64,000 bases of DNA from Micromonospora sp. NBC_00421 (lineage in GTDB: Bacteria > Actinomycetota > Actinomycetes > Mycobacteriales > Micromonosporaceae). The position numbers were made by a program, and so were the translations under genes. Shown in pieces: positions 49,473 through 64,000 of this stretch (positions are counted from its first letter, which is position 1; every line of letters begins with the position of its first letter). A model generated the notes under the pieces. The model was not told the origin of the DNA and made no database searches. It worked only from the letters and a program-made list of their open reading frames with translations. Location of the stretch: positions 868,001-932,000 of the forward strand of contig NZ_CP107929.1 in assembly GCF_036017915.1 (NCBI RefSeq), given 5' to 3'.

Positions 49473-50923
49473 GTTTCAGCAGTGGGCGTGTGGGGCCTGT
49501 TCTGCGGTCCTGAACGCTGTGGTTGCGCGGCCATCGCAGGGCAGAGATGGCGGGCGGGGGTGCCGGGGGCACCGAAGGGCACGGACGGCGCGGTGATCCC
49601 GCATCCCCGCATGGGCGGGAACGAGGTGCGTCCAGGTCGTCCTGACGTCTCTGCTGAGCTCGTCCCTGGGGTGCCGGGGCGGGGGCAGGGCACCTCCCGG
49701 CGTGGGGTGTGGTCAGAAGGTGATCGTGAGGGTGGTGTCGGGTCGGTTGATGTCGCCGGGTTCGGCGGGTCGGGTTCCTGCGCGGTGACGGTGGGCTGGT
49801 TGGGGCGGCCTGCGGCGTCCCATTGGTCGAGCAGGTTGGTCAGGTCGGTGGCGAGCGCGTTGGCGTCGGGTCCGTGGGCGATCGCGCCGAGTTCGTGGTG
49901 GCCGTCGCCGGTGTCTTGGAAGGCGAGGTAGGCGATGGTGCCGCCGTGGTAGATGGCGGCACCGGCCCATCGGTAGGCGGGGGTGACCAGTCCGCTGGTG
50001 CGGGCGGTATCGCCGACGCCGAGGCGGCCGAACGGTTTGTCGGCGTGTGCGAGGAGCCACAGGTCGAGGTGGCCGATGGGGTCGGCGTCGTTGACCTGGA
50101 TGCCGGTCCAGCGTTCGAGCCGGGGGTGGCTCAGAGCCTTGGCGAGGGCGGCGCGGTCGGGTTGGTCGGTGGCGTCGAGTTTGAGGACGACGTCGGTGTC
50201 GAGGCGTACGTGGTGGTCGGTGTGTTCGGTGCTGCCGCGCATGGGGACGAATCCGCAGACCAGTGGCGTCGTGGCGCTCACCAGCATCGTGGGGCTGGTG
50301 CGGTCGAAGGCGAAGCATCGGGTCAGGCCGCTCTCGTGCACGCGCAGGGGCACGACGATGCGGCCGTGGTCGGCGAGTTGGTTCCACCAGGCGGCGGAGA
50401 TGTCCCAGGCTCCGGCGGTGACGATGATCCGGTCGTAGGGCGCGTGGTCGGGTGCGCCGAGGGCGCCGTCGCCGCAGATCACCTTCACGGTGTGGTAGCC
50501 GGCGCGGTCGAGGCCGGCGCGGGCGCCGTCGGCGAGGTCCTGGTCGAGTTCGATGGTGACGACCGTGCCGCCGGGGCTGGTCAGCTCGGTGAGCAGTGCG
50601 GCGTTGATGCCGGTGGCCGCGCCGATCTCCAGGACGCGGTGGCCGGGTTGGGGGGCGAGTTGTTCGAGCATGTCCGCGACGAGGCTGGGGTTCGATGCGG
50701 ACGACAACGCGGCACCGCTGGGGTCTCGTTTGGTGACGATCTGGCGGCGGGTGTAGACGGTTTCCAGGTCGACGCCGGGGAGGAACTGCTCGCGGGGGAC
50801 CGTACGGAATGCGTGCGCGACGGGGGCGGAGCGGATGTGGCCGCGCTGTTCGAGTGTGCTGACGAGCTGTTCGCGGAGCGTCGCGGCACTCGACGTTCCC
50901 GGTGCGGTGGGGGAAGTGTTCAC
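49358..50923 (-). CDS. FxLD-system (PIMT-like) methyltransferase, C-terminal frame disturbed (521 aa)
   Basis: The Rossmann-type core is clear: LEIGAATGINAALLTEL (SAM motif I), VVTIELDQDLADGARAGL, VICGDGALG and YDRIIVTAGAWDISAAWW. It resembles protein-L-isoaspartate methyltransferases, in particular the FxLD-associated RiPP methyltransferases. Family members end in a beta-strand like DINRPDTTLTITF, which is present here in another frame (ending at 49713). The frame drawn runs on through about 115 bases of the recombinase gene. A one-base shift near 49765 would restore the normal end. GTG 50923 is the start; no FxLD precursor peptide is visible nearby. Confidence 0.7.
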   Translation of the reverse strand: MNTSPTAPGTSSAATLREQLVSTLEQRGHIRSAPVAHAFRTVPREQFLPGVDLETVYTRRQIVTKRDPSGAALSSASNPSLVADMLEQLAPQPGHRVLEIGAATGINAALLTELTSPGGTVVTIELDQDLADGARAGLDRAGYHTVKVICGDGALGAPDHAPYDRIIVTAGAWDISAAWWNQLADHGRIVVPLRVHESGLTRCFAFDRTSPTMLVSATTPLVCGFVPMRGSTEHTDHHVRLDTDVVLKLDATDQPDRAALAKALSHPRLERWTGIQVNDADPIGHLDLWLLAHADKPFGRLGVGDTARTSGLVTPAYRWAGAAIYHGGTIAYLAFQDTGDGHHELGAIAHGPDANALATDLTNLLDQWDAAGRPNQPTVTAQEPDPPNPATSTDPTPPSRSPSDHTPRREVPCPRPGTPGTSSAETSGRPGRTSFPPMRGCGITAPSVPFGAPGTPARHLCPAMAAQPQRSGPQNRPHTPTAETHARGCGSFVKAANAAATSCRLARTYVVVVPTSPPLSA

Positions 50924-51070
50924 TGCGTTGACCCTACTGTCGATCTTGGGGGCATTCGGCTGGTGCAGGCGGGAAGCGAGAGTTGCCAGACGTTGCGCCG
51001 TTGTCCAAGGGTTCAAGGCTCATCATCTCCACTCGTGGCGTCAGCATTGACATACTGAAGGTTGACCAGT

Positions 51071-51206
51071 GGCTGATCTAGGAACCCCCGGTGGACACGG
51101 AAAGGCGGGAGGTTCCGAACCTCGAAATGAGAATGATTGGGGCATACCGGTTGCGCATCGCCTGGGTGATTCGCTGGCGAGCGTCGATTTCTGCTGGTGG
51201 AGAGCT
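51071..51206 (+). promoter_or_regulatory. CRISPR array 1 leader
   Basis: The leader opens with CTGATCTAGGAACCC and GTGGACACGG, closely matching the leader of array 2. Inverted GGAACC (51081) and GGTTCC (51111) form a hairpin 126 bp before the first repeat; array 2 has the equivalent 127 bp before its first repeat. The AT-richer 3' part carries the probable promoter of the pre-crRNA, but no clear -35/-10 is called. Confidence 0.6.
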
Positions 51207-53401
51207 GCTGCGCCCGGTCTACGGACCGGGCGAGGATCGCAACACCGCGTCGAAGTTGCCCAGCAGAATGCCACCGTCGAGCTGCGCCCGGTCTACGGAC
51301 CGGGCGAGGATCGCAACAGGTCGAGCCCGAACGCGAGGTGCAGCGCGACCAGGCTGCGCCCGGTCTACGGACCGGGCGAGGATCGCAACCACCCGGGCAT
51401 CATCGCCCACCGGGAAGCCACGCCGTCGCTGCGCCCGGTCTACGGACCGGGCGAGGATCGCAACCTCGGAGCGGCCGGGGACCTGCTGGGCACGGGGCTG
51501 GCTGCGCCCGGTCTACGGACCGGGCGAGGATCGCAACTCACCGCCGCTCGCCGCTGCCCCGGCGACACCCCGCTGGCTGCGCCCGGTCTACGGACCGGGC
51601 GAGGATCGCAACCCCGGACTGCCCGGCGCGGACCAGAGCGGCCAGCTCGGCGGCTGCGCCCGGTCTACGGACCGGGCGAGGATCGCAACTCACCGCCGCT
51701 CGCCGCTGCCCCGGCGACACCCCGCTGGCTGCGCCCGGTCTACGGACCGGGCGAGGATCGCAACCCCGGACTGCCCGGCGCGGACCAGAGCGGCCAGCTC
51801 GGCGGCTGCGCCCGGTCTACGGACCGGGCGAGGATCGCAACCACTCCCCTCCCAGCCACGTCTCGATGTCGGGCGGCAGGCTGCGCCCGGTCTACGGACC
51901 GGGCGAGGATCGCAACTCGATTCCGGCCAGGGCCTCTGCCCGGGCCGCGTGGGCTGCGCCCGGTCTACGGACCGGGCGAGGATCGCAACGGGTCCGGTCT
52001 TGGTGGGTGGCTGTCCGGCCGGCGGGGGCTGCGCCCGGTCTACGGACCGGGCGAGGATCGCAACATGGTGTTCCTGTCCACGATGGTGCAGCTGCTGATG
52101 CGCTGCGCCCGGTCTACGGACCGGGCGAGGATCGCAACCAGTACTGCGTCGTCCCCATGGCCGGGGGCTGCGGGGCGCTGCGCCCGGTCTACGGACCGGG
52201 CGAGGATCGCAACCCGGCACCGGGGATGTCCACGGTTTCGGCGCTCACGCTGCGCCCGGTCTACGGACCGGGCGAGGATCGCAACAAGGTCGAAGCGGGC
52301 CGGGAGTAGATCAACGTTGGTGGCTGCGCCCGGTCTACGGACCGGGCGAGGATCGCAACGGCGGACCCGCAGGAACCGGTCCAGGGCCTGCCCGGTGCTG
52401 CGCCCGGTCTACGCACCGGGCGAGGATCGCAACCCGCATGACGGCCAGGTCCCGCTCGTCACGGCGGATCGCTGCGCCCGGTCTACGGACCGGGCGAGGA
52501 TCGCAACATCCGGTGGTACAGCCCGGACTTGAGTCCCGGCACATAGCTGCGCCCGGTCTACGGACCGGGCGAGGATCGCAACCTGGTCGCCTCCGTGGTG
52601 GGTGACGCAGCGGGGCCGGGCTGCGCCCGGTCTACGGACCGGGCGAGGATCGCAACCGGCATCACCGCAGCGGTGAACATCCCGAGACCGATCGCTGCGC
52701 CCGGTCTACGGACCGGGCGAGGATCGCAACGACGAGGATCAGGGGCCACGGGACGCGGCCGGTCGGCTGCGCCCGGTCTACGGACCGGGCGAGGATCGCA
52801 ACGACGTGATCGAAACGGGCATCGGCAGCGTGTCGGCGGTGGCTGCGCCCGGTCTACGGACCGGGCGAGGATCGCAACATCAGCAACACGGCCGACGCCG
52901 CCGAGATCCTGACGATGCTGCGCCCGGTCTACGGACCGGGCGAGGATCGCAACAGACAGGCGGCGGCCATCTCACGCGGCATCGCCCGCCAGCTGCGCCC
53001 GGTCTACGGACCGGGCGAGGATCGCAACCTGGACTACGCGGCGTTGGCCCTGCATCACGTGGCCCGCTGCGCCCGGTCTACGGACCGGGCGAGGATTGCA
53101 ACAAGCCGGACCGGGAGGCAGTGATTGTCGAGCTGGCGCTGCGCCCGGTCTACGGACCGGGCGAGGATCGCAACTCGGCCATGGGTATCTCCTGTCGGCA
53201 GGGTGCGGGCGTGCTGCGCCCGGTCTACGGACCGGGCGAGGATCGCAACTGCGCCACGTTCGAGGTGGTGATGCTCCACCAGGGCAGCGCTGCGCCCGGT
53301 CTACGGACCGGGCGAGGGTCGCAACGCCGTGCACCCGCAGGAACAGCGGGGTCTCGACGTCCCCGCTGCGCCCGGTCTACGGACCGGGCGAGGATCGCGG
53401 C
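51207..53401 (+). CRISPR. CRISPR array 1, 30 repeats
   Basis: The 37-nt repeat has a 9-bp stem (CGCCCGGTC with GACCGGGCG, loop TAC plus G) and ends in the 11-nt handle AGGATCGCAAC, the type I-C layout. There are 29 spacers of 35-40 nt. Repeats 17, 26, 29 and 30 carry changes, the last three near the far end, so the leader is on the left and transcription runs rightward. Spacers 5-6 are duplicated as spacers 7-8 (152-bp block). Confidence 0.98.
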
Positions 53402-53577
53402 CTTCCGTACCCACCAGTGCTGCTGGGTACGCGCTGGGTGAGGTTCTCGATATCGAGGGCCAGGTCGGCACACTTTGGCTGTGGCGAGCGCCTGGGCGCG
53501 ACAGGAGTCGGTGGTGGCCGCCGACAGGGTCAATGCTCTGTGGTCGGTAACCACTTGGCTCAGGAGGATCTGTAACG

Positions 53578-53628
53578 ATGATCTTGGGAGTTGTTTATGT
53601 CTGGTGTGAGTTCTCTGCGGGCGCATAG
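53578..53628 (+). CDS. Possible 16-residue leader peptide overlapping the cas3 start
   Basis: ATG at 53578 has the strong ribosome binding site AGGAGG (53562-53567) and reads MILGVVYVWCEFSAGA in a different frame, ending at 53628 inside cas3. The cas3 ATG itself has only GGGAG. Translation of the short frame could load or limit ribosomes on cas3. Only the signals are seen; translation is not proved. Confidence 0.35.
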   Translation: MILGVVYVWCEFSAGA

Positions 53629-55864
53629 TCCTGCTACCGGTTCTGGTCGGTGGCACTCGCTTGCGGATCATCTTCGTGGCACGGCGGTGCTGGCGCGACG
53701 GTTCGCTGCCCCGTTTGGTGGGGGTGAGGTGGCGTACTGGCTGGGTGCGCTGCATGACGTGGGAAAGGCGTCCTGTGCGTGGCAGGACAAGCTCGCTGTG
53801 GTCGGGCCCACTGGGGGAGCGGTGGGTATTGATCACAAGTCGTTGGGGACCAGGATCGCGCAGGAGCGTGGGCTTGGGCCGTTTGCTGGGGCGATTTTCG
53901 GCCATCATGGTGGGCTTGTCGATAATCCTGGGCTACGTGAGGCGTTGCGGAAGAGGCTGGCTGACTGGTCCGGGGACGTGGCGTCCGCTGAGCGCGAGTT
54001 GCCCGTGTTGCTGCCCGATCTGCCACAGGATCTGGGTTCTCTGGTGCCGGTGGATTGGCGTGGTGATCCGCTGGCGGGGGAGATGGCGCTACGCCTGTGT
54101 TACAGCGCGTTGGTGGATGCGGACAGTTTGGACACTTCCGCGCATTTCAAAGGGTTGACCGGTCCTCGGGTGTGTGCGGATGCCGACTTCAGTCATCTCT
54201 ACCAGAGGTTCGAGGGTCGACGTCGGGCGGAGATCGCCGCACGTGGCGGCTCTCCGATCGCGGCCTTGCGGGAGCAGATCTACGCGGATTGTCTGGCGGC
54301 GGCTGAGTGCGAGCCGGGGGTGTTTCGCCTTGGTGCGCCGACCGGTGCCGGTAAGACGCTGGCGAGTGGGGCGTTCGCGCTGCGGCATGCGGAGAAGCAC
54401 GGGTTGCGCCGGGTGATTGTGGCGGTCCCGTTCCTGACCATCACCGAGCAGAATGCCGCCGTATACCGTCGGCTGTTGGACGAGGAAGGTGAAGAGCCGG
54501 TCGTCCTCGAACATCACAGCCAGGCCGACTTCGATGATCCGGATGCCGGCCGGTGGGCACGGCTCGCGGCGGAGAACTGGGATGCGCCGTTCGTGGTCAC
54601 GACCTTCGTCCGGCTCTTCGAGTCGCTGTACGCGCGTAAACCGTCGGCGATGCGTCGGGTGCATCGCCTGGCCAACTCGGTGATCGTGTTGGACGAGGTG
54701 CAGGCGCTGCCGCATGCCATGCTCGCGCCGATCCTCGATGGTCTTCGCCTGCTCGTGCGGCACTTCGGTGCGACCGTGCTGCTGTCCTCGGCGACACAGC
54801 CGAGTTTCTGGGCGTTGGATGAATTCAAGGATGTGCCGTGCATGGATCTGATCCACGACACCCCAAGGCTGGTCAGTGAGCTGCGGCGGGTGCGATACAA
54901 GTGGCAGCTCGACCCGCAGCCGACGCTGGCGGACATCGCCGACCAAGCAGCGGCAGAACGGTCGGCGTTGGTGGTGGTAAACACGACGGCGGACGCGAAG
55001 GCAGTGTTCGAGCGGTGGAACGACACGGAACAGGAAGGGGCGGCCTGGCACCTATCGACTCGCATGTGCCCAGAGCATCGGCGGCAGGTGCTGAATGAGG
55101 TACGCACTCGTCTCGACCAGGACGAGCGGGTCCTGTTGGTAGCCACGCAACTCATCGAGGCTGGTGTAGACGTCAGTTTCCCGGTGGTGTTCCGGGCGAT
55201 GGCGCCGGCTGACTCACTGTTGCAAGCAGCCGGGCGAGCCAACCGTGAAGGGCGGATGGCCGACGGTGGTCTGGTGGTCGTCTTCGCGCCGAAGGACGGC
55301 GGGCAACCACCCTCGTACAAGACGTTGGTCGGCTGTGCCGGACGTCAGTTCGGACCGGACAAGGCCGACCCGGACGACGTGGCGGCGCTCGGACGCTACT
55401 ACCGCAACGTGTACGACATGCTGAACCTCGCCGACAGCCAGCACGTCGGCAAACGCATCCAGTACGCCCGGCAACGCTGGGAGTTCGAGACCGTGGCGGA
55501 CGGGCCGATGGATGCGAGCACCAAGCGGCGGGATCGGAAGCTGGCGTTCAGGATGATCGACGACGACGCTATCAACGTGGTGACGCCACAGGGCGCAGTA
55601 ACACCTGAGCTGCGGTATGAGCTGGAGGAGCTCATCGTCGAGCTACGTCACGCACCGGTTCCGGATCTGGCGAAGCTGCGTCGTTTGCAGCCATACACGA
55701 CGAACCTCCACCCCAGCGTTCTACGCCAGCCCGGAGTGACGGCGCTACTGCGACCGATTCTCGGCACCGAGGTACGGCGGGGCGCGTTGGTCGAGTGGAT
55801 CGGCGAGTACGACAACTCCACGGGGATCAACCTCGACCCGAACCTGGAGCAGTTCGTCTTCTAA
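53597..55864 (+). CDS. cas3: CRISPR-associated helicase/nuclease Cas3, type I-C (755 aa)
   Basis: The N-terminal HD nuclease has WLGALHDVGKASCAW (HD pair) and IFGHHGGLVDN. The SF2 helicase follows: motif I GAPTGAGKTLASG, motif II IVLDEVQALP (DExx), and motif VI LQAAGRANREGR. Cas3 is recruited by target-bound Cascade and degrades one DNA strand. ATG 53597 follows GGGAG. It lies between array 1 and the silent gap, apart from the Cascade operon, so it may have its own promoter. Confidence 0.95.
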   Translation: MSGVSSLRAHSPATGSGRWHSLADHLRGTAVLARRFAAPFGGGEVAYWLGALHDVGKASCAWQDKLAVVGPTGGAVGIDHKSLGTRIAQERGLGPFAGAIFGHHGGLVDNPGLREALRKRLADWSGDVASAERELPVLLPDLPQDLGSLVPVDWRGDPLAGEMALRLCYSALVDADSLDTSAHFKGLTGPRVCADADFSHLYQRFEGRRRAEIAARGGSPIAALREQIYADCLAAAECEPGVFRLGAPTGAGKTLASGAFALRHAEKHGLRRVIVAVPFLTITEQNAAVYRRLLDEEGEEPVVLEHHSQADFDDPDAGRWARLAAENWDAPFVVTTFVRLFESLYARKPSAMRRVHRLANSVIVLDEVQALPHAMLAPILDGLRLLVRHFGATVLLSSATQPSFWALDEFKDVPCMDLIHDTPRLVSELRRVRYKWQLDPQPTLADIADQAAAERSALVVVNTTADAKAVFERWNDTEQEGAAWHLSTRMCPEHRRQVLNEVRTRLDQDERVLLVATQLIEAGVDVSFPVVFRAMAPADSLLQAAGRANREGRMADGGLVVVFAPKDGGQPPSYKTLVGCAGRQFGPDKADPDDVAALGRYYRNVYDMLNLADSQHVGKRIQYARQRWEFETVADGPMDASTKRRDRKLAFRMIDDDAINVVTPQGAVTPELRYELEELIVELRHAPVPDLAKLRRLQPYTTNLHPSVLRQPGVTALLRPILGTEVRRGALVEWIGEYDNSTGINLDPNLEQFVF

Positions 55865-55877
55865 CGTTTTCAGGTCA

Positions 55878-55906
55878 CCAGGTGAGCGCACCGTGCGCTC
55901 ACCTGG
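55878..55906. terminator. Terminator between cas3 and the small membrane-protein gene
   Basis: Perfect 13-bp arms CCAGGTGAGCGCA and TGCGCTCACCTGG around a CCG loop, 14 bp after the cas3 stop and nine bp past the stop of the convergent small gene. It should end both transcripts. Confidence 0.8.
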
Positions 55907-55914
55907 CAATCCAG

Positions 55915-56118
55915 TCAATCCATGATCTTGTGCAGCCCTCCGGCGGTGATCAAGCTGGCAAGCACACCGGTGGGCAGACTCTCGGCGGTGCCGACCATGA
56001 TGCCAATCGCAGCGCTCAGCGCCATGATTACTACCCAGCGTAACGGGAGAGGGGAGGGGCTCCGGGGTTCTTGACTCTCGTCGGGTGGCCTGTGGGCGCG
56101 GCGTTGCCCTACTGTCAT
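55915..56118 (-). CDS. Small membrane protein in the cas3-cas5 gap, candidate CRISPR-repressed toxin (67 aa)
   Basis: ATG 56118 follows AAAGGA. The first 27 residues are hydrophilic (MTVGQRRAHRPPDESQEPRS), then a membrane helix (about 28-45, LRWVVIMALSAAIGIMVGTA) and a second hydrophobic stretch (VLASLITAGGLHKIMD). It reads opposite to the cas genes. A promoter (TTAGAC-N18-TATAAA) lies about 100 bp upstream and directly beyond it sits the PAM-and-seed site matched by the putative mini-crRNA. Small membrane toxins often have this size and shape. Similar small actinobacterial proteins of unknown role exist, so toxicity is a hypothesis. Confidence 0.55.
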   Translation of the reverse strand: MTVGQRRAHRPPDESQEPRSPSPLPLRWVVIMALSAAIGIMVGTAESLPTGVLASLITAGGLHKIMD

Positions 56119-56157
56119 CTTGTTCCTTTCGGCCTCACGGATGGCGGGGGAGCTGGG

Positions 56158-56183
56158 CGGTCCGCTGTTCGCGCAGCGGACCG
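56158..56183 (-). promoter_or_regulatory. 5'-UTR hairpin of the small membrane-protein gene
   Basis: Nine-bp arms CGGTCCGCT and AGCGGACCG enclose an 8-nt loop in the predicted 5' leader of the minus-strand transcript. It could influence translation or be a processing site. Confidence 0.45.
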
Positions 56184-56220
56184 TCGTGTTTCTGGGGACG
56201 GTGCCCGCCCAGCCGACATC

Positions 56221-56250
56221 TTTATAGCCCACAGTGGAGCGTGTGTCTAA
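56221..56250 (-). promoter_or_regulatory. Promoter of the small membrane-protein gene
   Basis: On the minus strand, -35 TTAGAC (56250-56245) and -10 TATAAA (56226-56221) are separated by 18 nt. TATAAA is one of the best -10 boxes in the window. Transcription would start near 56214, leaving a leader of about 95 nt. The mini-crRNA target site ends 10 bp upstream of the -35. Confidence 0.55.
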
Positions 56251-56255
56251 CCACA

Positions 56256-56291
56256 GGGTGCTTGAGCCGACTCCGTCCGGCTCAAGCACCC
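56256..56291. repeat. Perfect 14-bp inverted repeat overlapping the seed site
   Basis: GGGTGCTTGAGCCG and CGGCTCAAGCACCC pair perfectly around an 8-nt loop. It lies upstream of both divergent promoters, so it is more likely a binding or structural element than a terminator of a known gene. Its right arm contains five bases of the seed target. Confidence 0.6.
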
Positions 56292-56297
56292 AAGGAA
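56260..56297 (-). promoter_or_regulatory. Predicted Cascade target site (TTC PAM plus 8-nt seed match)
   Basis: On the minus strand, TTC (56297-56295) is followed by CTTGGGTG (56294-56287), identical to the first eight bases after the orphan handle at 56357-56367. Matching past the seed is at background level. TTC is the known type I-C PAM, on the correct side. Binding would cover about 56294-56260, between the -35 boxes of two divergent promoters, which is the geometry of partial-match repression without cleavage. Confidence 0.65.
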
Positions 56298-56299
56298 GT

Positions 56300-56329
56300 T
56301 TGATAGCCTGTTTGGGCCGCTAGCAAGGT
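56300..56329 (+). promoter_or_regulatory. Promoter of the putative mini-crRNA
   Basis: A -35 TTGATA (56300-56305) and a -10-like CAAGGT (56324-56329) are 18 nt apart and predict a start near 56336, only a few bases before the degenerate repeat. The -10 is weak. The PAM of the target site is three bp from this -35, so Cascade bound there could also repress this RNA. Confidence 0.4.
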
Positions 56330-56340
56330 CGGGTGGCCTG

Positions 56341-56367
56341 CAGTGCCTAGGTGCTGAGGATCGCAAC
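56341..56367 (+). repeat. Degenerate solitary CRISPR repeat (pseudo-repeat)
   Basis: CAGTGC-CTAG-GTGCTG forms a six-bp hairpin with two G-U pairs, directly followed by AGGATCGCAAC, identical to the 11-nt handle of all array repeats. The stem sequence is unrelated to either array stem, but the hairpin and its distance to the handle are kept. This is the pattern of pseudo-repeats in CreA genes. Confidence 0.75.
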
Positions 56368-56396
56368 CTTGGGTGTTGCCCGGAGGGGGTTGGCTT

Positions 56397-56430
56397 CGTC
56401 CGACCAGGACTGACCCGTCCTTGTCGGACG
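56397..56430 (+). terminator. Closing hairpin of the putative mini-crRNA
   Basis: CGTCCGAC pairs with GTCGGACG, then after a C/T mismatch AGGAC pairs with GTCCT around a TGACCC loop: 13 bp in all. It starts 29 nt after the handle and is suited to end or protect the RNA. Confidence 0.6.
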
Positions 56431-56618
56431 GAGTTCCGCCCCGAAGTAGTCGAGTCGGATTCTTGTCAGTCCTTCATGGAGTGAACCGGCGTGGTGCGGC
56501 CGTTCCTGCCGCACTGGTCGTGGATCGTCGCACCTGGTGTGCGAGGAGGCCTCCGGTTTCGTGGTGGGGTCTTGCTTCGATCATGTGTGCGAGGGGCCTG
56601 TCGTGGGAGGGCTGTGTG
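56431..56618 (+). other. Leader of the cas5 operon, no gene seen
   Basis: This stretch holds hairpins at 56494-56514 (GTGCGGC/GCCGCAC) and 56528-56544 (TCGCAC/GTGCGA). No clear promoter boxes are visible for the Cascade operon. The cas5 frame is open through it but carries no similarity. Confidence 0.4.
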
Positions 56619-57320
56619 GTGACGATGGAAGTGGTCAATGGGGTGACCTTGCGGCGGAGCCCGGAGGGTGATCTTCCGGTGGTGGTGCAGGTCAGTGGTG
56701 AGGCGGCGTTGTTCTCGCGGCCGGAGTTGAAGGTGGAGCGGGTCAGTTATCCGGTGATGACGCCGTCTGCTGCGGTGGGGGTGCTCGAATCGATCTTCTG
56801 GAAGCCGGAGATGCGGTACCGGGTGGTGGCGATCGAGGTGCTCAAGCCGGTGCGGCAGTTTTCGATTCGGCGGAACGAGACCTCGGATGTCGCACCGTTG
56901 GCGGAGGCGCTCAAGGGCTCGCGTCGGGTCGATACCGCAGCGCATCGTGATCAGCGGAATGCGGTGTGCCTGCGGGATGTGGCGTACCGGATTCATGCTC
57001 ATGTCGAGGTGGCGGCGCACGCGGACAAGCCGGTCGCGGCGTATCGGGATCAGTTGCGTCGGCGGGTCCGGAAAGGGGCTTGCTTCCAGCAGCCCTACCT
57101 GGGCACGCGTGAGTTCAGCGCGGAGTTCGGCTGGCCGGATGACACGCCCCGGGCGGATGTCAACGAGGAGATCGGCATCATGCTGCACTCCATCCACCGG
57201 GACGGGCAGTCGGCTCAGCCGCGGATGGAGTGGTTCGCCGCTCGGGTGGTGGCCGGGGTGTTGTCCGTGCCGGAACGGGGGATCGAGCTGGCGCTTCCGG
57301 TGGAAGGCCAGGTGGTGTAG
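56619..57320 (+). CDS. cas5: Cas5 (Cas5d/Cas5c), type I-C crRNA endonuclease (233 aa)
   Basis: The RAMP fold starts with VVVQVSGEAALFSRPELKVE, the Cas5d N-terminal motif, followed by YPVMTPSAAVGVLESIFWKP (glycine-rich region of Cas5). With no cas6 in the locus, Cas5 is expected to cut pre-crRNA at the base of the repeat hairpin, giving the 11-nt handle, and to stay bound to it. The GTG at 56619 is eight bases after GGGAGG; GTG 56616 and ATG 56625 are alternatives. It overlaps cas8 by one base. Confidence 0.9.
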   Translation: MTMEVVNGVTLRRSPEGDLPVVVQVSGEAALFSRPELKVERVSYPVMTPSAAVGVLESIFWKPEMRYRVVAIEVLKPVRQFSIRRNETSDVAPLAEALKGSRRVDTAAHRDQRNAVCLRDVAYRIHAHVEVAAHADKPVAAYRDQLRRRVRKGACFQQPYLGTREFSAEFGWPDDTPRADVNEEIGIMLHSIHRDGQSAQPRMEWFAARVVAGVLSVPERGIELALPVEGQVV

Positions 57321-59146
57321 TGCTGCTGCAGCGGCTGGTGGAGTTCGCCGACACCAGCACAGAGATCATCCCGCCGTTCTACTCCCGCAAGGCGGTGCGT
57401 TGGAGCCTGGAGATCGACGCCAACGGTGTTCCCCAGGGTGGCCTGGTCGATACGGCGAACAAGGACGACCCGAACTCCCGGTTCGGTGCGCCCCGGCTGG
57501 TGCCGGCGGTGACCCGGACCGTCGGGATCTCGCCCGCGCTCGCGGTCGACACGGGGGAGTACGTCTTCGGTTGGCTGTCGGAGGGGGTCAAGCCGGAACG
57601 GGTCGCCAAGCAGTACACCGCGTTCCGTGCCCTGATCGCCGAGTGGGCGGCAGCCGAACCAGATAGTCATGGTCCGGCTGTCGCCGCCTTCTACCGCGAC
57701 GGGCACGCCGACCGTGTTTCACCGCCGGCGGACTGGGGCAGGGGAGACCTGGTCGGCTTCTGGGTCGACGGGGTCTACGCGGCGGACGCTGTCGCGGCGC
57801 AGCGTTTCTGGGCCGGGGTGGCCGGTGACCGGAAGGGCTCCGGACGATCCGGGTTGTGTCTGGTCTGCGGGCGGGTGCAGCCGCTACTCCACACGATGCC
57901 GCAGCAGATTCCTCGACGGTGGGTGCCCGGGGCCACCCAGAGCGCGTCGCTGGTCAGCATGAACGAGGCCACCCACGGCTACGAGTTGCAGAAGTTCCTG
58001 ACCCATACCCCGATCTGCGCCGACTGCGGACTGAAGTTCATGACCGCGCTGACGGCGCTGCTGTCCGATCCCCGGCACAGCACCAGCCTGTCCGGGCAGA
58101 ACGCCCGGCTCGCCTGGTGGGTCCTCGGCGGGTCGACCATCGACCCGTGGGCGGCCGTCGAGCAGTTGGACCCCAGCCACATCCAGCGCCTGGTTGCTGG
58201 GCCGGCGAGCGGCGCGGAAGCCTCCCTCGACGAGGTGTCCCGGTACTGCTCGGTGACCGTGGGCGGCAACGTCGCCCGCGTCGTTGTGCGGGACTGGGTC
58301 GAGCTGCCGATCTCCCGGGTCAAGGACAACATCCGGGCCTGGTTCGACGACCACCGGATCGTTGACGCCTGGACCGGTGAGGTGGCCACCATCAGGGTCT
58401 CCCAACTGGCCCGGGTAGCGGGTCGGTTCGAGGTCGGACGTAACGGAGGTGCCGGGACGTGGACGAAGTTCGGCGCGTCCGGGGAACACCGCCCACCTGA
58501 CCTGTTCCACCGGCTGCTCAGCGCCGCGCTACTCAGGCGACCGTTGCCGCCGAAGCTGCTCAACCACGTCATCAACCGCATCCGGATCGACGGCCGTCTC
58601 GACCCCGCCCGCGCGGCGTTGATCCGGCTCGCCCTGCGCCGTCACCCGACCCTGCCCGAGCATGAACGAGAGAGGCTGACGCCGACCTTGAACGTCGCCC
58701 ACAAGCAGCCGGCCTACGTAGCCGGCCGCATCTTCGCCGTCATGGACGACCTGCAACGCACCGTGTTCCGGGTCGCCGACCAGAAGCTGAACACCACCTT
58801 CGCCGAACGTTACTTCGGCCGCGCCATCGACAACCCGCAGGTCGTCATCGTCTCCGGCCGCCGCAACGTACAGGCGTGGCTCAAACGCCTCCGCGGCCCG
58901 CTGCGCCGGCCCGGCTGGTCGGACGCGTACGAACGGCGGCTCGACGACCTGTTCGTCCAGCTTGACGTGATCCCCAGCGCTGCGGTGCTGACGGACAAGG
59001 CCCAGTTCATCCTCGGCTACCACCAGCAGCGGGCCGAGATGCGGACCGAACGCGTCGCCGCAGCCGCGAACAAGAAGAAGACCGACCTTCCCCCGGAGCC
59101 CGACGACGTGGCACCGACCGCCGACGACGAAGGAGACGACGCATGA
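57320..59146 (+). CDS. cas8c: Cas8c (Csd1), type I-C Cascade large subunit (608 aa)
   Basis: It begins with LLQRLVEFADTSTEIIPPFY, a typical Csd1 start, and contains RWSLEIDANGVPQGGLVDTA. CLVCGRVQPLLHTMPQQIPR and ICADCG supply paired cysteines of the family. Cas8c recognises the PAM and recruits Cas3; in I-C an internal start also produces a separate small subunit (Cas11). The GTG start shares a base with the cas5 stop. Confidence 0.9.
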   Translation: MLLQRLVEFADTSTEIIPPFYSRKAVRWSLEIDANGVPQGGLVDTANKDDPNSRFGAPRLVPAVTRTVGISPALAVDTGEYVFGWLSEGVKPERVAKQYTAFRALIAEWAAAEPDSHGPAVAAFYRDGHADRVSPPADWGRGDLVGFWVDGVYAADAVAAQRFWAGVAGDRKGSGRSGLCLVCGRVQPLLHTMPQQIPRRWVPGATQSASLVSMNEATHGYELQKFLTHTPICADCGLKFMTALTALLSDPRHSTSLSGQNARLAWWVLGGSTIDPWAAVEQLDPSHIQRLVAGPASGAEASLDEVSRYCSVTVGGNVARVVVRDWVELPISRVKDNIRAWFDDHRIVDAWTGEVATIRVSQLARVAGRFEVGRNGGAGTWTKFGASGEHRPPDLFHRLLSAALLRRPLPPKLLNHVINRIRIDGRLDPARAALIRLALRRHPTLPEHERERLTPTLNVAHKQPAYVAGRIFAVMDDLQRTVFRVADQKLNTTFAERYFGRAIDNPQVVIVSGRRNVQAWLKRLRGPLRRPGWSDAYERRLDDLFVQLDVIPSAAVLTDKAQFILGYHQQRAEMRTERVAAAANKKKTDLPPEPDDVAPTADDEGDDA

Positions 59147-60033
59147 GCGCCGCGCACCTCGACCCGACCCGCCGCCACGACGCCGTCCTGCTGTTCGACG
59201 TCAGCGACGGCAACCCCAACGGCGACCCGGACGCCGGCAACCAGCCCCGCACCGACGATGAGAGCGGACAGGGCCTGGTCACCGACGTGGCGATCAAACG
59301 CAAGATCCGCGACACCGTGTCGCTGCTGCGCGGCGACGACCCGCGCTACGGCATCTTCGTCGAAGCCGGCCACGCCCTGAACACCCGAATCGACGGCGCC
59401 TTCACCGCCAACCCACCCAAGATCAGCAACAAGCCCACCCCGGCAGAGAGCGCGGCAGCCCAGCAGTGGCTCTGCGCGCACTACTTCGACATCCGGATGT
59501 TCGGCGCGGTGCTCAGCACCGGCAAGAGCGGCGGCGCCGGTCAGGTCCGTGGTCCGCTCCAGCTCACCTTCGCCCGCAGCATCGATGCGATCCTGCCCAC
59601 CGACCACACCATCACCCGGGTCACCCAGACCCGACAGGACGACATCGACAAGGGTGAGCGCACGGAGATCGGATCCAAGTGGACCGTCCCGTACGGCCTC
59701 TACCGCGCCCACCTGTTCTACTCCGCACCCCGCGCCGCCAAGACCGGCGTCACCAGCGACGACCTCGCCGCCTTGTGGCAGGCCCTCACCGTCATGTTCG
59801 ACCACGACCGGGCCGCCAGCCGCGGCGAGATGAAGCTCTGCGGTCTCTACGTTTTCAGCCACCCCGACGCCTTCGGAGCCGCACCCTCGGCCGCCCTCAC
59901 CCAGCGGATCACCGTCAAGCGCACCAACGACGACAAGGCGCCACGCGCCCACACCGACTACACCCGCAGCATCGACGAGTCCGGCTTGCCCGGCGGCATC
60001 GAGCTGACCAAGCTGGTCGATCTCTGGCCGTGA
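59143..60033 (+). CDS. cas7: Cas7 (Csd2), type I-C Cascade backbone (296 aa)
   Basis: The Cas7 signature is strong: DAVLLFDVSDGNPNGDPDAG near the N-terminus and TDVAIKRKIRDTVSL. GADVRMFGAVLSTG-like stretch (DIRMFGAVL) and RGPLQLTFARSIDAI follow. Several copies coat the crRNA spacer. The gene overlaps cas8 by four bases (ATGA). Confidence 0.95.
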   Translation: MSAAHLDPTRRHDAVLLFDVSDGNPNGDPDAGNQPRTDDESGQGLVTDVAIKRKIRDTVSLLRGDDPRYGIFVEAGHALNTRIDGAFTANPPKISNKPTPAESAAAQQWLCAHYFDIRMFGAVLSTGKSGGAGQVRGPLQLTFARSIDAILPTDHTITRVTQTRQDDIDKGERTEIGSKWTVPYGLYRAHLFYSAPRAAKTGVTSDDLAALWQALTVMFDHDRAASRGEMKLCGLYVFSHPDAFGAAPSAALTQRITVKRTNDDKAPRAHTDYTRSIDESGLPGGIELTKLVDLWP

Positions 60034-60680
60034 CCGACGACCACCCTGAGGACAGCGGCACCGACCTGCGGGAGGTGCCGCTGTCCGCGTTGGAGCACTA
60101 CGCCTACTGCCACCGGCAGACCGCCCTCATCCACGTCGAGGGCGTCTGGACGGAAAACGTCGAGACGGTACGCGGCGACCTCAGCCACACCACCGTCGAC
60201 CTACCCGGCATCCAACGCCGCCGAGGCCTCACCACCATCCGGTCACTGCCGGTATGGAGTCACACCCACGGCCTACGCGGTATCTGCGACGTCGTCGAGT
60301 TCGAGAAGAACGCCGCCACACCCGTCGAGTACAAGGTCGGACGCTACAAACCCGGCGGCCCCGCCGAACTACAACTCGGCGGGCAGGCCCTCTGCCTCAT
60401 CGAAGCCGGCTTCGACGTACCCACCGGATACATCTACTCCGTGGCCGAACGCCGCCGACACCCCGTACCCATCGACCATGACCTGCTCGAACGGGTCATC
60501 GCCGCCACCGCAGCCGTCCGTCGACTGCTGCACACCCCGGCGCTGCCGGCGGCACGCAACGACACCCGCTGCCGGCGATGCTCCCTGCGCGAGGACTGCC
60601 TACCCGAACTAACCGACGGCCAGCGGCAGACCCCACCCGACCTGTTGACCCCACGACCATTGGGACAGTGGCGTGACTGA
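60030..60680 (+). CDS. cas4: Cas4, RecB-like nuclease for spacer acquisition (216 aa)
   Basis: The four cysteines of the iron-sulfur cluster are seen (first in HYAYCHRQ, then CRRCSLREDC). The nuclease residues appear in GICDVVEFEKNAATPVEYKV and GRYKPGGP...LQLGGQALCL. Cas4 trims prespacers and checks the PAM with Cas1-Cas2. It overlaps cas7 by four bases (GTGA). Confidence 0.92.
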   Translation: MTDDHPEDSGTDLREVPLSALEHYAYCHRQTALIHVEGVWTENVETVRGDLSHTTVDLPGIQRRRGLTTIRSLPVWSHTHGLRGICDVVEFEKNAATPVEYKVGRYKPGGPAELQLGGQALCLIEAGFDVPTGYIYSVAERRRHPVPIDHDLLERVIAATAAVRRLLHTPALPAARNDTRCRRCSLREDCLPELTDGQRQTPPDLLTPRPLGQWRD

Positions 60681-61701
60681 ACTACTCAACACCCTCTACG
60701 TCCAGACCCCCGGCACCAGCCTGCGCCTCGACGGCGACACCGTCCGGATCTACCACCCCGACCAACCCGGACGTCACCTACTACCCCTCGTCCGACTCGA
60801 CCACCTGGTCCTGTTCAGCGGCGTGACCCCCACCGACGACCTGCTCCTGCGCTGCGCCGACGACGGCCGCTCCGTCAGCTGGCTCACCGGCAGCGGACGA
60901 TTCCGCGCCGGACTGATCGGCCCCACCCACGGCAACCCACTGCTACGCCAAGCCCAACACCGCGCCGCCGACTCACCACAGCGCCAACTCCCCATCGCCG
61001 TCGCCATCGTCGCCGGCAAAATCCACAACGCGCGCCAAGTCCTGCTCCGCACCGCCCGCGACACCAGCGGCCCCCGACAAACCGCACTACGCGCCACCGC
61101 CGAACTCCTCGCCCAACGACTCGAACTCCTCACCACCACCGCCAGCACCAACGAAATCCTCGGCGTCGAAGGCATCGCCGCCCGCGACTACTTCGCCGCC
61201 ATGCCCTACCTCCTCGGCGACAACACCGACTGGAAGGCATCCGGCCGCAATAAACGACCACCCACCGACCCCCTGAACTGCCTGCTCTCCTTCCTGTACG
61301 GCATGCTGCGCGTCGCGGTGCAGGGTGCACTCGAACAGGTCGGCCTCGACCCCTACATCGGTTTCCTCCATGCCGTCCGACCCGGTAAACCAGCCCTCGC
61401 TCTCGACCTGATGGAAGAGTTCCGACCCCTCCTGGCCGACCGCCTCGCCCTCACCATGCTCAACAGACGAGAGCTGACCCCCACCGACTTCGAAGAACTA
61501 CCAAACAACGCATACCGACTCACCGACAACGGACGAAAGACCGTGCTCGCAGCCTGGCAACAGAGCCGACAACGCGAGTGGCCGCACGCGCAACTCAACC
61601 GCCAAGTGCCTGCCGCGCTGCTCCCACTCGTGCAAGCCCGACTACTCGCCCGCCACCTCCGCGGAGACACGGTCGCCTACGAGCCGTGGACGGTGAACTG
61701 A
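60673..61701 (+). CDS. cas1: Cas1 integrase, type I-C (342 aa)
   Basis: N-terminal beta domain (LLNTLYVQTPGTSLRLDGDT) and the catalytic helical domain with GVEGIAARDYFAAMPYLLG (first catalytic Glu in VEG), LLSFLYGMLRVAVQGALEQ and GLDPYIGFLHAVRPGKPALA (His) and DLMEEFRPLLADR (Asp). Cas1 with Cas2 inserts new spacers at the leader. The GTG start overlaps cas4 by eight bases. Confidence 0.97.
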   Translation: MTELLNTLYVQTPGTSLRLDGDTVRIYHPDQPGRHLLPLVRLDHLVLFSGVTPTDDLLLRCADDGRSVSWLTGSGRFRAGLIGPTHGNPLLRQAQHRAADSPQRQLPIAVAIVAGKIHNARQVLLRTARDTSGPRQTALRATAELLAQRLELLTTTASTNEILGVEGIAARDYFAAMPYLLGDNTDWKASGRNKRPPTDPLNCLLSFLYGMLRVAVQGALEQVGLDPYIGFLHAVRPGKPALALDLMEEFRPLLADRLALTMLNRRELTPTDFEELPNNAYRLTDNGRKTVLAAWQQSRQREWPHAQLNRQVPAALLPLVQARLLARHLRGDTVAYEPWTVN

Positions 61702-61703
61702 AC

Positions 61704-61994
61704 GTGGACCTACTCGTCACCTACGACGTCGAGACAGTCACCCCACAAGGGCAACGCCGCCTCCGCAAAGTCGCCAAGATCTGCGAGGCATACGGACACC
61801 GCGTACAAAAATCGGTCTTCGAAGTAGTCTGCCGCGACACCGACAAAGTCCGCTTCGTCGCCGCCCTCCAAGACGCCATCGACCCCACCCAGGACAGCAT
61901 CCGCATCTACCACCTACCAGCCCACGCCCTCGACGACGTCGAACACCTCGGCAAACCACGACCCATCGACCCACGCGGACCACTAGTGATCTAG
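61704..61994 (+). CDS. cas2: Cas2, adaptation protein (96 aa)
   Basis: The ferredoxin-like fold starts LLVTYDVETVTPQGQRRL (metal-site Asp in TYDV), and ends with the strand DSIRIYHLPA. Two bases separate it from cas1. Its last codons (GTGATCTAG) are the start of the leader motif shared with array 1, so leader and gene overlap. Confidence 0.95.
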   Translation: MDLLVTYDVETVTPQGQRRLRKVAKICEAYGHRVQKSVFEVVCRDTDKVRFVAALQDAIDPTQDSIRIYHLPAHALDDVEHLGKPRPIDPRGPLVI

Positions 61995-62120
61995 GAACCC
62001 CTAGTGGACACGAAAACCCCGGAGGGTTCCGAGGTCAAAAACCCGGATCAGAGAGTCAAAACGGACTGCGAGCACGTCGATGAAGGATCGCCTAATCGCT
62101 ATATTTGCTGCTTGTGAACC
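61986..62120 (+). promoter_or_regulatory. CRISPR array 2 leader
   Basis: Starts inside the last codons of cas2 with GTGATCTAGGAACCC, then GTGGACACG. Inverted GGAACCC (61994) and GGGTTCC (62024) form a hairpin, as in leader 1. The distal part is AT-richer (about 62085-62115, CTAATCGCTATATTTGCTGC). The first repeat starts 127 bp after the motif. Confidence 0.65.
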
Positions 62121-64000
62121 GCTGCGCCCGGCCACCGCGCCGGGCGAGGATCGCAACCGCCGGGGGCGTACTGCCGCACTGCGCCACAGTGCAGTGGCTG
62201 CGCCCGGCCACCGCGCCGGGCGAGGATCGCAACCTCCGGGCCCCCGTCCGGCATCCCCAGGTCCGATTCCGCTGCGCCCGGCCACCGCGCCGGGCGAGGA
62301 TCGCAACGCCGGGAATCGCGGAAGCGCTGAACGAAACCGCGAGGGCTGCGCCCGGCCACCGCGCCGGGCGAGGATCGCAACTCCCCGGGGATGGTTCCTA
62401 CCCTGACGCAGCGGCGTGGCTGCGCCCGGCCACCGCGCCGGGCGAGGATCGCAACCTCCAGGAAATCGAGCTGTACGTCAAGGCGACCACGCTGCGCCCG
62501 GCCACCGCGCCGGGCGAGGATCGCAACCCCTTGCTCGGGTCCTCTGGCACCACCAGGCCGTGAGGCAGCTGCGCCCGGCCACCGCGCCGGGCGAGGATCG
62601 CAACTGGTCGTGGTTGGAGGTGGAGGCGCAGCAGGCCGGGTGCTGCGCCCGGCCACCGCGCCGGGCGAGGATCGCAACTGGGCAACAAGGCGGCGGCCGA
62701 GCGACTGGCCGACTCCGCTGCGCCCGGCCACCGCGCCGGGCGAGGATCGCAACCGCGCGGTCACCCGGATCTCGTACTCCACGTCGGTCAAGCTGCGCCC
62801 GGCCACCGCGCCGGGCGAGGATCGCAACCGGCGATACCTGACCACCCACGACATGATGGAGGAGCTGCGCCCGGCCACCGCGCCGGGCGAGGATCGCAAC
62901 CGTTCCGCCGTCCAGATCAGCCGCAGTCCGGACGCGCGGCTGCGCCCGGCCACCGCGCCGGGCGAGGATCGCAACCGGCCGTGGTGACGTCCATGTCCAC
63001 GGTCCAGATCGCGCTGCGCCCGGCCACCGCGCCGGGCGAGGATCGCAACCTTGATGCGTAAGCCGCGCGTGCTGACCATGGCAAGCTGCGCCCGGCCACC
63101 GCGCCGGGCGAGGATCGCAACTGCCTGGCGGGTGGTCCGGTCGGGCCACCTCCGCGCGGGCTGCGCCCGGCCACCGCGCCGGGCGAGGATCGCAACCTTG
63201 TGCTCGACGACCTGACCAGACATGACGGTGGTGCTGCGCCCGGCCACCGCGCCGGGCGAGGATCGCAACTACGAGGCCCTGGTGCGGGTCGACGGCTGGG
63301 AGCGGAGCTGCGCCCGGCCACCGCGCCGGGCGAGGATCGCAACATGCGGGAATTGGCACCTGGGCTGCGGGACGCTGCGGAGCTGCGCCCGGCCACCGCG
63401 CCGGGCGAGGATCGCAACGGCGCGGTCGGACCGCCCCCAGGTGATCGCGACGTCCTGCTGCGCCCGGCCACCGCGCCGGGCGAGGATCGCAACATCCCCA
63501 CCAAGCACGGCCTGATCTCCCCCATCTGCAGCTGCGCCCGGCCACCGCGCCGGGCGAGGATCGCAACCGGGCGATCGTGGTCACCCACGCGCCGAAGTCA
63601 CCGCCGCTGCGCCCGGCCACCGCGCCGGGCGAGGATCGCAACGGGGTTGGTGAGGTGCCGGTTGGTTATCTGCGCGCCAGCTGCGCCCGGCCACCGCGCC
63701 GGGCGAGGATCGCAACAGCCGGAACGGGTTATGGCAGATGGCGCACGCGCCGCCCGCTGCGCCCGGCCACCGCGCCGGGCGAGGATCGCAACGCCGACGA
63801 GCTAGCCGGGCTCGATGACGAATTAGGCGCTGCGCCCGGCCACCGCGCCGGGCGAGGATCGCAACTCGCCGGCCTTGACCACGCCGACGGACAGGTGGGG
63901 GGCTGCGCCCGGCCACCGCGCCGGGCGAGGATCGCAACTCGATCGAGCCGGCGAGGAACACCCGCCCGTCGCGGGCTGCGCCCGGCCACCGCGCCGGGCG
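62121..64000 (+). CRISPR. CRISPR array 2, at least 26 repeats (runs off the window)
   Basis: The 37-nt repeat has an 8-bp stem (CGCCCGGC with GCCGGGCG, loop CACCGC) and the handle AGGATCGCAAC. It differs from repeat 1 only in the central 10 or so bases. All 25 complete repeats are identical and there are 25 spacers; the 26th repeat is cut at 64000. High identity suggests an active, recently growing array. Confidence 0.98.

Follow-up and report, generated by a model that had tools for sequence, protein, structure and literature searches.

The gap between cas3 and cas5 of a type I-C CRISPR-Cas locus in the soil actinomycete Micromonospora sp. NBC_00421 contains what appears to be a small gene for a guide RNA directing Cascade to the promoter that serves the cas genes themselves, in the manner of a dimmer switch. 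Judging from sequence comparison of related actinobacterial loci, the best explanation for this element is a crRNA-like guide of CreR type serving as cas autorepressor in subtype I-C, which we hold to be right with a probability of about 0.72. The window hereinafter means the whole stretch of 64,000 nucleotides subjected to analysis; its relevant features, with positions counted from its first letter, are the following.

51207..53401, + strand: CRISPR array 1, the repeat of which ends with AGGATCGCAAC.
53591..55864, + strand: cas3 of type I-C (Pfam Cas3 domains; PADLOC Cas3c, 1.5e-182).
55915..56118, − strand: gene of a small membrane protein of 67 aa, accessory and not required by the module (ORF, relatives).
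56156..56185, no strand assigned: hairpin GGTCCGCTG..CAGCGGACC within the membrane gene's leader, terminator-like if read on the + strand.
56256..56291, no strand assigned: 14-bp perfect inverted repeat overlapping the target (read from the sequence).
56260..56294, − strand: target protospacer (35 nt assumed), with the seed at 56294-56287.
56295..56297, − strand: TTC PAM (TTC in 26 of 27 module loci, TTT in L105).
56304..56309, + strand: −10-like box TAGCCT of a supposed rightward promoter, adjoining the PAM (TANNNT pattern).
56341..56356, + strand: stem-loop of the pseudo-repeat (folding; alignment conservation).
56357..56367, + strand: 11-nt handle AGGATCGCAAC, identical to the end of the array repeat.
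56368..56402, + strand: guide (pseudo-spacer) with nominal 3′ limit and seed CTTGGGTG at 56368-56375.
56394..56433, + strand: strong hairpin 3′ of the guide (fold dG −27.0), a possible 3′ end or Cas5-recognised stem.
56619..57320, + strand: cas5c (PADLOC Cas5c, 2.6e-55), heading the run cas5-cas8c-cas7-cas4-cas1-cas2.
62120..64000, + strand: CRISPR array 2, with the same handle as array 1, extending past the edge of the window.

Subtype I-C is assigned to the window by its Cas5c, Cas8c, and Cas7c proteins (Pfam, PADLOC), and the cas locus has arrays on both sides, the first of them carrying at 51500-51803 a 152-nt segment of two repeat-spacer units in exact tandem duplicate. From the end of cas3 at 55864 to the start of cas5c at 56619, the gap takes 754 nt. 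Within the named genome collection, the nearest relatives of this cas5 belong to M. wenchangensis, M. pattaloongensis, and Salinispora. The lone hairpin followed by the exact 11-nt array handle, on which the earlier note had built its proposal, is indeed present, with a match of 11/11 and with CTTGGGTG placed directly 3′ of it; among the 53 copies of GAGGATCGCAAC in the window, the handle copy at 56357-56367 is the sole one situated outside the two arrays. TTC-CTTGGGTG was likewise found on the minus strand at 56297-56287, where it had been claimed to be, and no second TTCCTTGGNTG occurs anywhere in the 64 kb (0.03 expected). The estimate of chance occurrence given at that time, 4 in 10,000, is about right, as a set of 2000 dinucleotide shuffles of the gap yielded TTC with the 8-mer a single time. 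In the window, guide and target match at 8 of 10 scored seed positions (9 and 11 are mismatched), which is weaker than in most relatives. Thus, the observation made in the window is right, but modest taken alone.

The strong hairpin noticed 3′ of the guide is present, but the suggestion that it ends the RNA found no counterpart in the terminator scan, which gave nothing at this place, and a canonical terminator was rejected. Among 19 other folded loci, 13 have their best 3′ hairpin starting at +23 to +40, including a weak one of −6.5, and in the remaining 6 the start is farther 3′. Only one pseudo-repeat was seen, the folded 3′ hairpins having no repeat-like sequence on inspection. Assignment to a known Rfam family was discarded, with no match at the gathering threshold over positions 50000-64000.

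Type I-C loci for comparison were gathered by cas5: 12 came from one genome-contig scan, and searches of increasing taxonomic breadth gave 13/160 genomes for the genus, 30/354 for the family, and, in samples of the higher ranks, 16/397 for the order, 15/394 for the class, and 22/346 for the phylum. This resulted in 77 distinct cas5 loci, 73 from the genus-to-phylum searches and four (L013-L016) from the contig scan; L005-L012, sharing their cas5 sequence with L019, L030, L020, L022, L024, L025, L021, and L038, were counted once. The distance from cas3 (or the nearest long upstream ORF) to cas5 exceeds 190 nt in 27 of the 77, is short in 48, and was left unassigned in L053 and L054, which have no cas3 upstream; for L085-L104 of the phylum sample the gap was measured to the nearest long upstream ORF with its cas3 identity assumed, and L013 was judged gapless by eye. 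Selection of guide-target pairs used positions 1-5, 7, and 8 or positions 1-5 and 7-11, and never positions 6, 12, or 13 onward. In searches run without a handle requirement, the best-scoring pair was kept only if preceded by a handle-like 11-mer.

Among the 27 gap-bearing loci, 21 possess a handle-like 11-mer and, behind it, a guide matching a TTC-flanked protospacer in its own gap at no fewer than 8 of positions 1-5 and 7-11; the other six (L016, L021, L028, L029, L061, and L104) have no module. Together with six cases found upstream of cas3 and described below, this makes 27 module loci, all of actinobacterial type I-C, with 23 distinct seeds. Seeds are unrelated among groups, examples being CTTGGGTG in the window, genome G011, and M. 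wenchangensis, CTCAGGTGGTG in M. pattaloongensis, TGTCGGCGGGAAG in G001, GTTGTgAATGC in G336, AGCACcGGACG in G356, TGAAGcGGACA in G363, CATCCATCGAT in Acrocarpospora, and AGCTTgCGCAT in G991. The earlier note had named relatives keeping the handle while seed and target no longer match as evidence that would speak against a guide; this was checked, and the pairs stay matched in 27 loci despite 23 seeds. Positions 1-5 and 7-11 agree in 257 of 270 cases over the 27 loci, with 10/10 reached in 18 of them. For the 16 gap loci with distinct seeds, the score within the own gap is 8-10 of 10 in 16/16, and 7 of 240 cross-pairs reach at least 8.

Some guide positions took no part in selection. In type I Cascade, every sixth base of the guide stays unpaired. 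Over the 23 seeds, agreement at positions 6 and 12 is 10/46, i.e., at the level of chance, and at positions 13-17 it amounts to 61/115 (p of about 1e-8 versus a background of 0.28). Calculated over all 27 loci, the agreement is 46/81 for positions 13-15 versus 14/54 for positions 6 and 12 (Fisher p = 0.0004), and in the 11 loci picked by the handle and the seven positions 1-5, 7, and 8 it is 24/33 for positions 9-11 versus 10/22 for 6 and 12, a difference reaching only p = 0.052. Neither duplicated DNA nor a protein operator would be expected to produce matching with free positions 6 and 12. A combined cut (handle 8/11 and seed 9/10) was passed by 15 of 20 gaps, all with a module already accepted, so that this is not a blind rate, and by 0/1000 shuffles and 0/20 coding controls, both unselected; with the handle relaxed to 7/11 the respective numbers are 16/20, 3/1000, and 1/20. 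The strict cut is missed by the window, L018, L019, L025, and L014. The pseudo-handle also follows the array of its own genome, agreeing at 9-11 of 11 positions in the 10 loci for which an array was found and scored (no array was found in 10 other fetched module stretches). In G001, where the array ends with AGGATCTCAAC and not with AGGATCGCAAC, the pseudo-repeat has the same handle at 11/11, and in the distant locus L069 the handle GGAGTCTCAAC coincides with the end of its own array repeat.

The target was said to lie between two divergent promoters. A strict sigma-70 scan of the gap found no promoter; on the rightward side, a TANNNT box (TAGCCT) is located 6 nt beyond the PAM and is shared by near relatives aligned with the window. 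The target is on the minus strand in 16 gap loci, and 14 of them have TANNNT on the + strand with its first base 0-13 nt beyond the PAM, against 0.93 expected; hence Cascade bound there would lie across a promoter reading into the guide and towards cas5. In five gap loci the target is on the + strand, namely, in L022 (M. thermarum) and, from another family, in L058, L059, L060, and L062; in L022 the protospacer itself includes a TANNNT, in L060 one follows the protospacer at a distance of about 20 nt, and for L058, L059, and L062 none was found within 110 nt. The palindrome overlapping the target in the window was considered as a functional site and rejected, since G011 and M. wenchangensis lack it but retain the target (cas3-cas5 gap of G011 and of L005). 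Salinispora fenicalii (L007) has a different inverted repeat at the equivalent place, and the nearest relatives of the window have none.

Were the Cascade operon's promoter the target, loci with cas3 and cas5 in a single operon should have the module upstream of cas3. Such upstream stretches were fetched for 20 of the 48 gapless loci, and a module was accepted in six, five with TTC (G333, G327, G377, G311, and G542) and one, L105 (G157), with a 10/10 match, after the PAM was relaxed to TTT; shuffled stretches were positive in 2 of 500 cases. Consequently, the TTC module is absent from 15 of the 20 stretches, and 14 are free of any accepted one. The weakest accepted case is L115 (9/10, with a + strand target 228 nt from the guide), and 9/10 pairs of L111 and L120 were rejected as modules since the 11-mers preceding them match the handle at only 7/11. 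About 170 nt upstream of cas3, L109 (G331) shows a decayed module with a guide nearly as in G333 and a lost handle, and no matching target was found for it within 1 kb. For the five cas3-upstream loci with a minus-strand target, TANNNT occurs within 13 nt of the PAM in only two (L108 and L118, i.e., G327 and G542), so that the promoter reading is weaker here than in gap loci. A different arrangement is offered by L069, which has its guide on the opposite strand and its target 38 nt before the start of cas5 in a gap of 200 nt with no other evident gene; pairing there again covers positions 1-5 and 7-11 with 6 and 12 unmatched.

A role of the targeted site as the cas promoter is suggested by the −10-like box (14/16 gap loci and 2/5 cas3-upstream loci) and by position. 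Other sequences are situated nearer to the first cas gene: at about 56502-56530 of the window and in equivalent places there is a conserved TTGTC(G/A)TAC... block with a hairpin TCGCAC..GTGCGA before cas5, and several gapless loci (L105-L110) have a TTGAC-17-CTGGAT-like sequence upstream of cas3. It is possible that the TTGTC(G/A) or TTGAC motif belongs to a second cas promoter, perhaps staying outside the control of the guide. Because of the hairpin between guide and cas5 and this possible second promoter, the targeted one may drive mainly the guide itself.

The divergent neighbor of the module, the 67-aa minus-strand gene, looks real by its same length and frame in relatives and by dN/dS of 0.12-0.79 (15 pairs of 6 sequences); its product has no family in Pfam, NCBIfam, or PADLOC. 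It is intact in 11 of the 27 module loci, 7 in the gap and 4 upstream of cas3, all in Micromonosporaceae, the other 16 having it broken or not at all; when the module stretches were searched with a profile, the only extra find was the gene of Salinispora fenicalii, with a stop at the fourth codon. Five of these 16 loci (L014, L027, L042, L046, and L118) have some other hydrophobic minus-strand ORF, perhaps in part by chance, and none was found in 11. L027 and L042 share a second kind of small hydrophobic ORF between cas3 and target, with common GGANPANAALAGGG, which is short in L042. Profile matches were obtained in 34 of 280 genomes of the family, mostly to weaker relatives of LPLRWAVI type; the nine strongest in this search (E < 1e-20) are all in module loci, and among 16 fetched loci of weaker relatives, 15 are without a handle-like 11-mer on either strand and one has a loose one. 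The leader hairpin of the gene is kept in the four cas3-upstream loci possessing it (L105, L107, L108, and L110), and in M. thermarum it bears paired changes CGTTG..CAACG (by eye). In the gap of Salinispora vitiensis (L011/L021), a deletion took the target, the guide, and the membrane gene except for approximately its last ten codons. An obligatory partnership of the membrane gene with the module was rejected on account of the 16 loci without it; co-regulation may take place, and the gene is unlikely to be the reason for module retention.

The competing possibility that the guide represses this gene as a toxin punishing the loss of Cascade, in the way of CreTA or CrePA, has to be weighed with these data. 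It is favored by the intact divergent copies, which go with the module at either of its two locations, by the other hydrophobic ORFs standing in the same orientation, by the dN/dS values and the confinement of the nine strongest relatives to module loci, and by the protospacer of G011 and M. wenchangensis, extending towards the likely −35 element of the membrane gene (by eye). Against it, the module is kept where the gene is absent or broken, including 11 loci in which no hydrophobic minus-strand ORF was detected, and weaker relatives occur in other loci, nearly all of those fetched being without a handle-like sequence; the protein bears no mark of a toxin family, and the conserved anchor of gap loci is the rightward box. 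For the absence of the gene in 16/27 loci, the distribution of weaker relatives, and the lack of a toxin mark, the CreTA option is less favored, and we regard it as unlikely. The general idea of a crRNA-like silencing guide with a PAM-adjacent seed is, on the other hand, strongly supported by covariation in the 27 loci, and the alternative of a cas-regulating RNA, which the earlier note had also offered, is favored by the −10 placement in gap loci, by modules preceding cas3 in some of the gapless operons, and by L069.

Still more doubtful is a guide RNA limiting only its own promoter and having another target elsewhere. The targeted promoter does lie directly upstream of the guide, which is then followed by a hairpin, and the second promoter-like motif is nearer to the cas genes, all of which would suit self-limitation. 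Against this, the guide of L069 is on the other strand with its target just before cas5, and in L014 the distance between the guide start and cas5 is as short as 86 nt. A scan of the window genome revealed no TTC site matching guide positions 1-5, 7, 8, 10, and 11, a pattern that the known target itself fails at position 11, so that weaker sites would escape it. As for a degenerate leftover repeat combined with a chance seed match, the single repeat, the 8-nt match, the chance of about 1 in 2000 for the window alone, and the decayed copy in L109 might be taken in its favor, but guide and target matched in 27 loci with 23 seeds and with the 6/12 pattern render it highly improbable, and chance matching was rejected by both gap shuffles and covariation.

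Under the preferred reading of a CreR-type autorepressor, events may proceed as follows. The rightward promoter with its box at 56304-56309 would transcribe the pseudo-repeat and the guide, probably reading on into cas5-8-7-4-1-2. Cas5c would cut this RNA at the pseudo-repeat, like at array repeats, leaving the 11-nt handle, and Cascade loaded with the guide would bind the TTC-flanked target beside the −10 box, with base pairs formed for the most part at positions 1-5 and 7-11. A duplex this short is supposed to block RNA polymerase without cutting by Cas3. As long as free Cascade is plentiful, the operon would be turned down; once Cascade is tied up by crRNAs or anti-CRISPRs, it would be turned up. 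In Micromonosporaceae, a two-way switch is conceivable, albeit tentatively, with Cascade sitting between divergent promoters and repressing both its own operon and the membrane protein. If true, anti-CRISPR attack or loss of Cascade would raise new Cascade along with an inner-membrane effector, combining CreR and a CreTA-like module in one, the CreR half often being alone elsewhere in the class.

If the main reading holds, RNA-guided CRISPR autorepression is extended to subtype I-C and to actinomycetes. The 27 natural matched guide-target pairs constitute a data set on the pairing needs of a regulating Cascade, and guide-target covariation with free positions 6 and 12 gives a search route for such switches. 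The prediction is that a deletion of approximately 40 bases would raise the endogenous type I-C activity in genomes having the module.

Several known systems resemble the element in part. Solitary repeat units of phages (Racr) are described, also for type I-C, as inhibitors acting as repeat mimics (PMC10651486). These are phage-borne, unlike the element considered here, which belongs to the cas locus and shows conserved matching of guide and target. The toxin of CreTA systems is a small RNA sequestering a rare tRNA. This RNA toxin is repressed by the antitoxin CreA (PMC8501985, PMC9458426, PMC10097628, PMC12737573), and CreA of Haloarcula hubeiense pairs at nucleotides 1-5 and 7-11 behind TTC, with mutations of the 6th or 12th base tolerated (PMC8501985). 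Our module is alike in pairing at 1-5 and 7-11 behind TTC (8/10 in the window) with 6 and 12 free, in its degenerate repeat, and in having a supposed promoter as target; it differs by the target being beside the supposed cas/guide promoter and by the absence of any matched toxin family. In CrePA, a crRNA-like antitoxin represses a protein-coding gene, CreP being typically a KilA-N protein (Shu et al., 2025, as excerpted in PMC12737573). The 67-aa membrane protein has neither KilA-N nor any Pfam match. Shmakov and colleagues reportedly described in 2023 crRNA-like elements and mini-arrays, including stand-alone repeats of cas loci, mostly of type I, with spacers partly matching cas promoters; a stand-alone repeat in the cas locus with a partial match is what is observed here.

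CreR, a two-repeat mini-CRISPR, is the closest counterpart. It is presented as a crRNA-like transcript that originates at an ectopic repeat of the cas locus and has limited complementarity to the cas promoter, autorepression having been proposed for it (Liu et al., 2023, Cell Host Microbe, as cited in PMC13131331 and PMC12737573), its repression being relieved when crRNAs or anti-CRISPRs occupy Cascade (review, PMC12737573). In PMC13131331, CreR is named for types I-B, I-E, and V-A, and type I-C is mentioned only for anti-CRISPRs; no type I-C CreR was seen among the entries listed by the literature searches. The window belongs to subtype I-C and hence falls outside the reported I-B, I-E, and V-A; I-C lacks Cas6, and processing is performed by Cas5, Cas5c being described as the processing enzyme of this subtype (PMC10013973). 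Further differences are the one pseudo-repeat seen, with a 3′ hairpin, and the link to a divergent membrane gene in Micromonosporaceae. The likeness to CreR lies in the ectopic repeat in the cas locus with its cognate handle (11/11 in the window and 9-11/11 in 10 loci) and in the partial PAM-flanked complementarity in 27 loci, directed to what box and position suggest to be a cas promoter.
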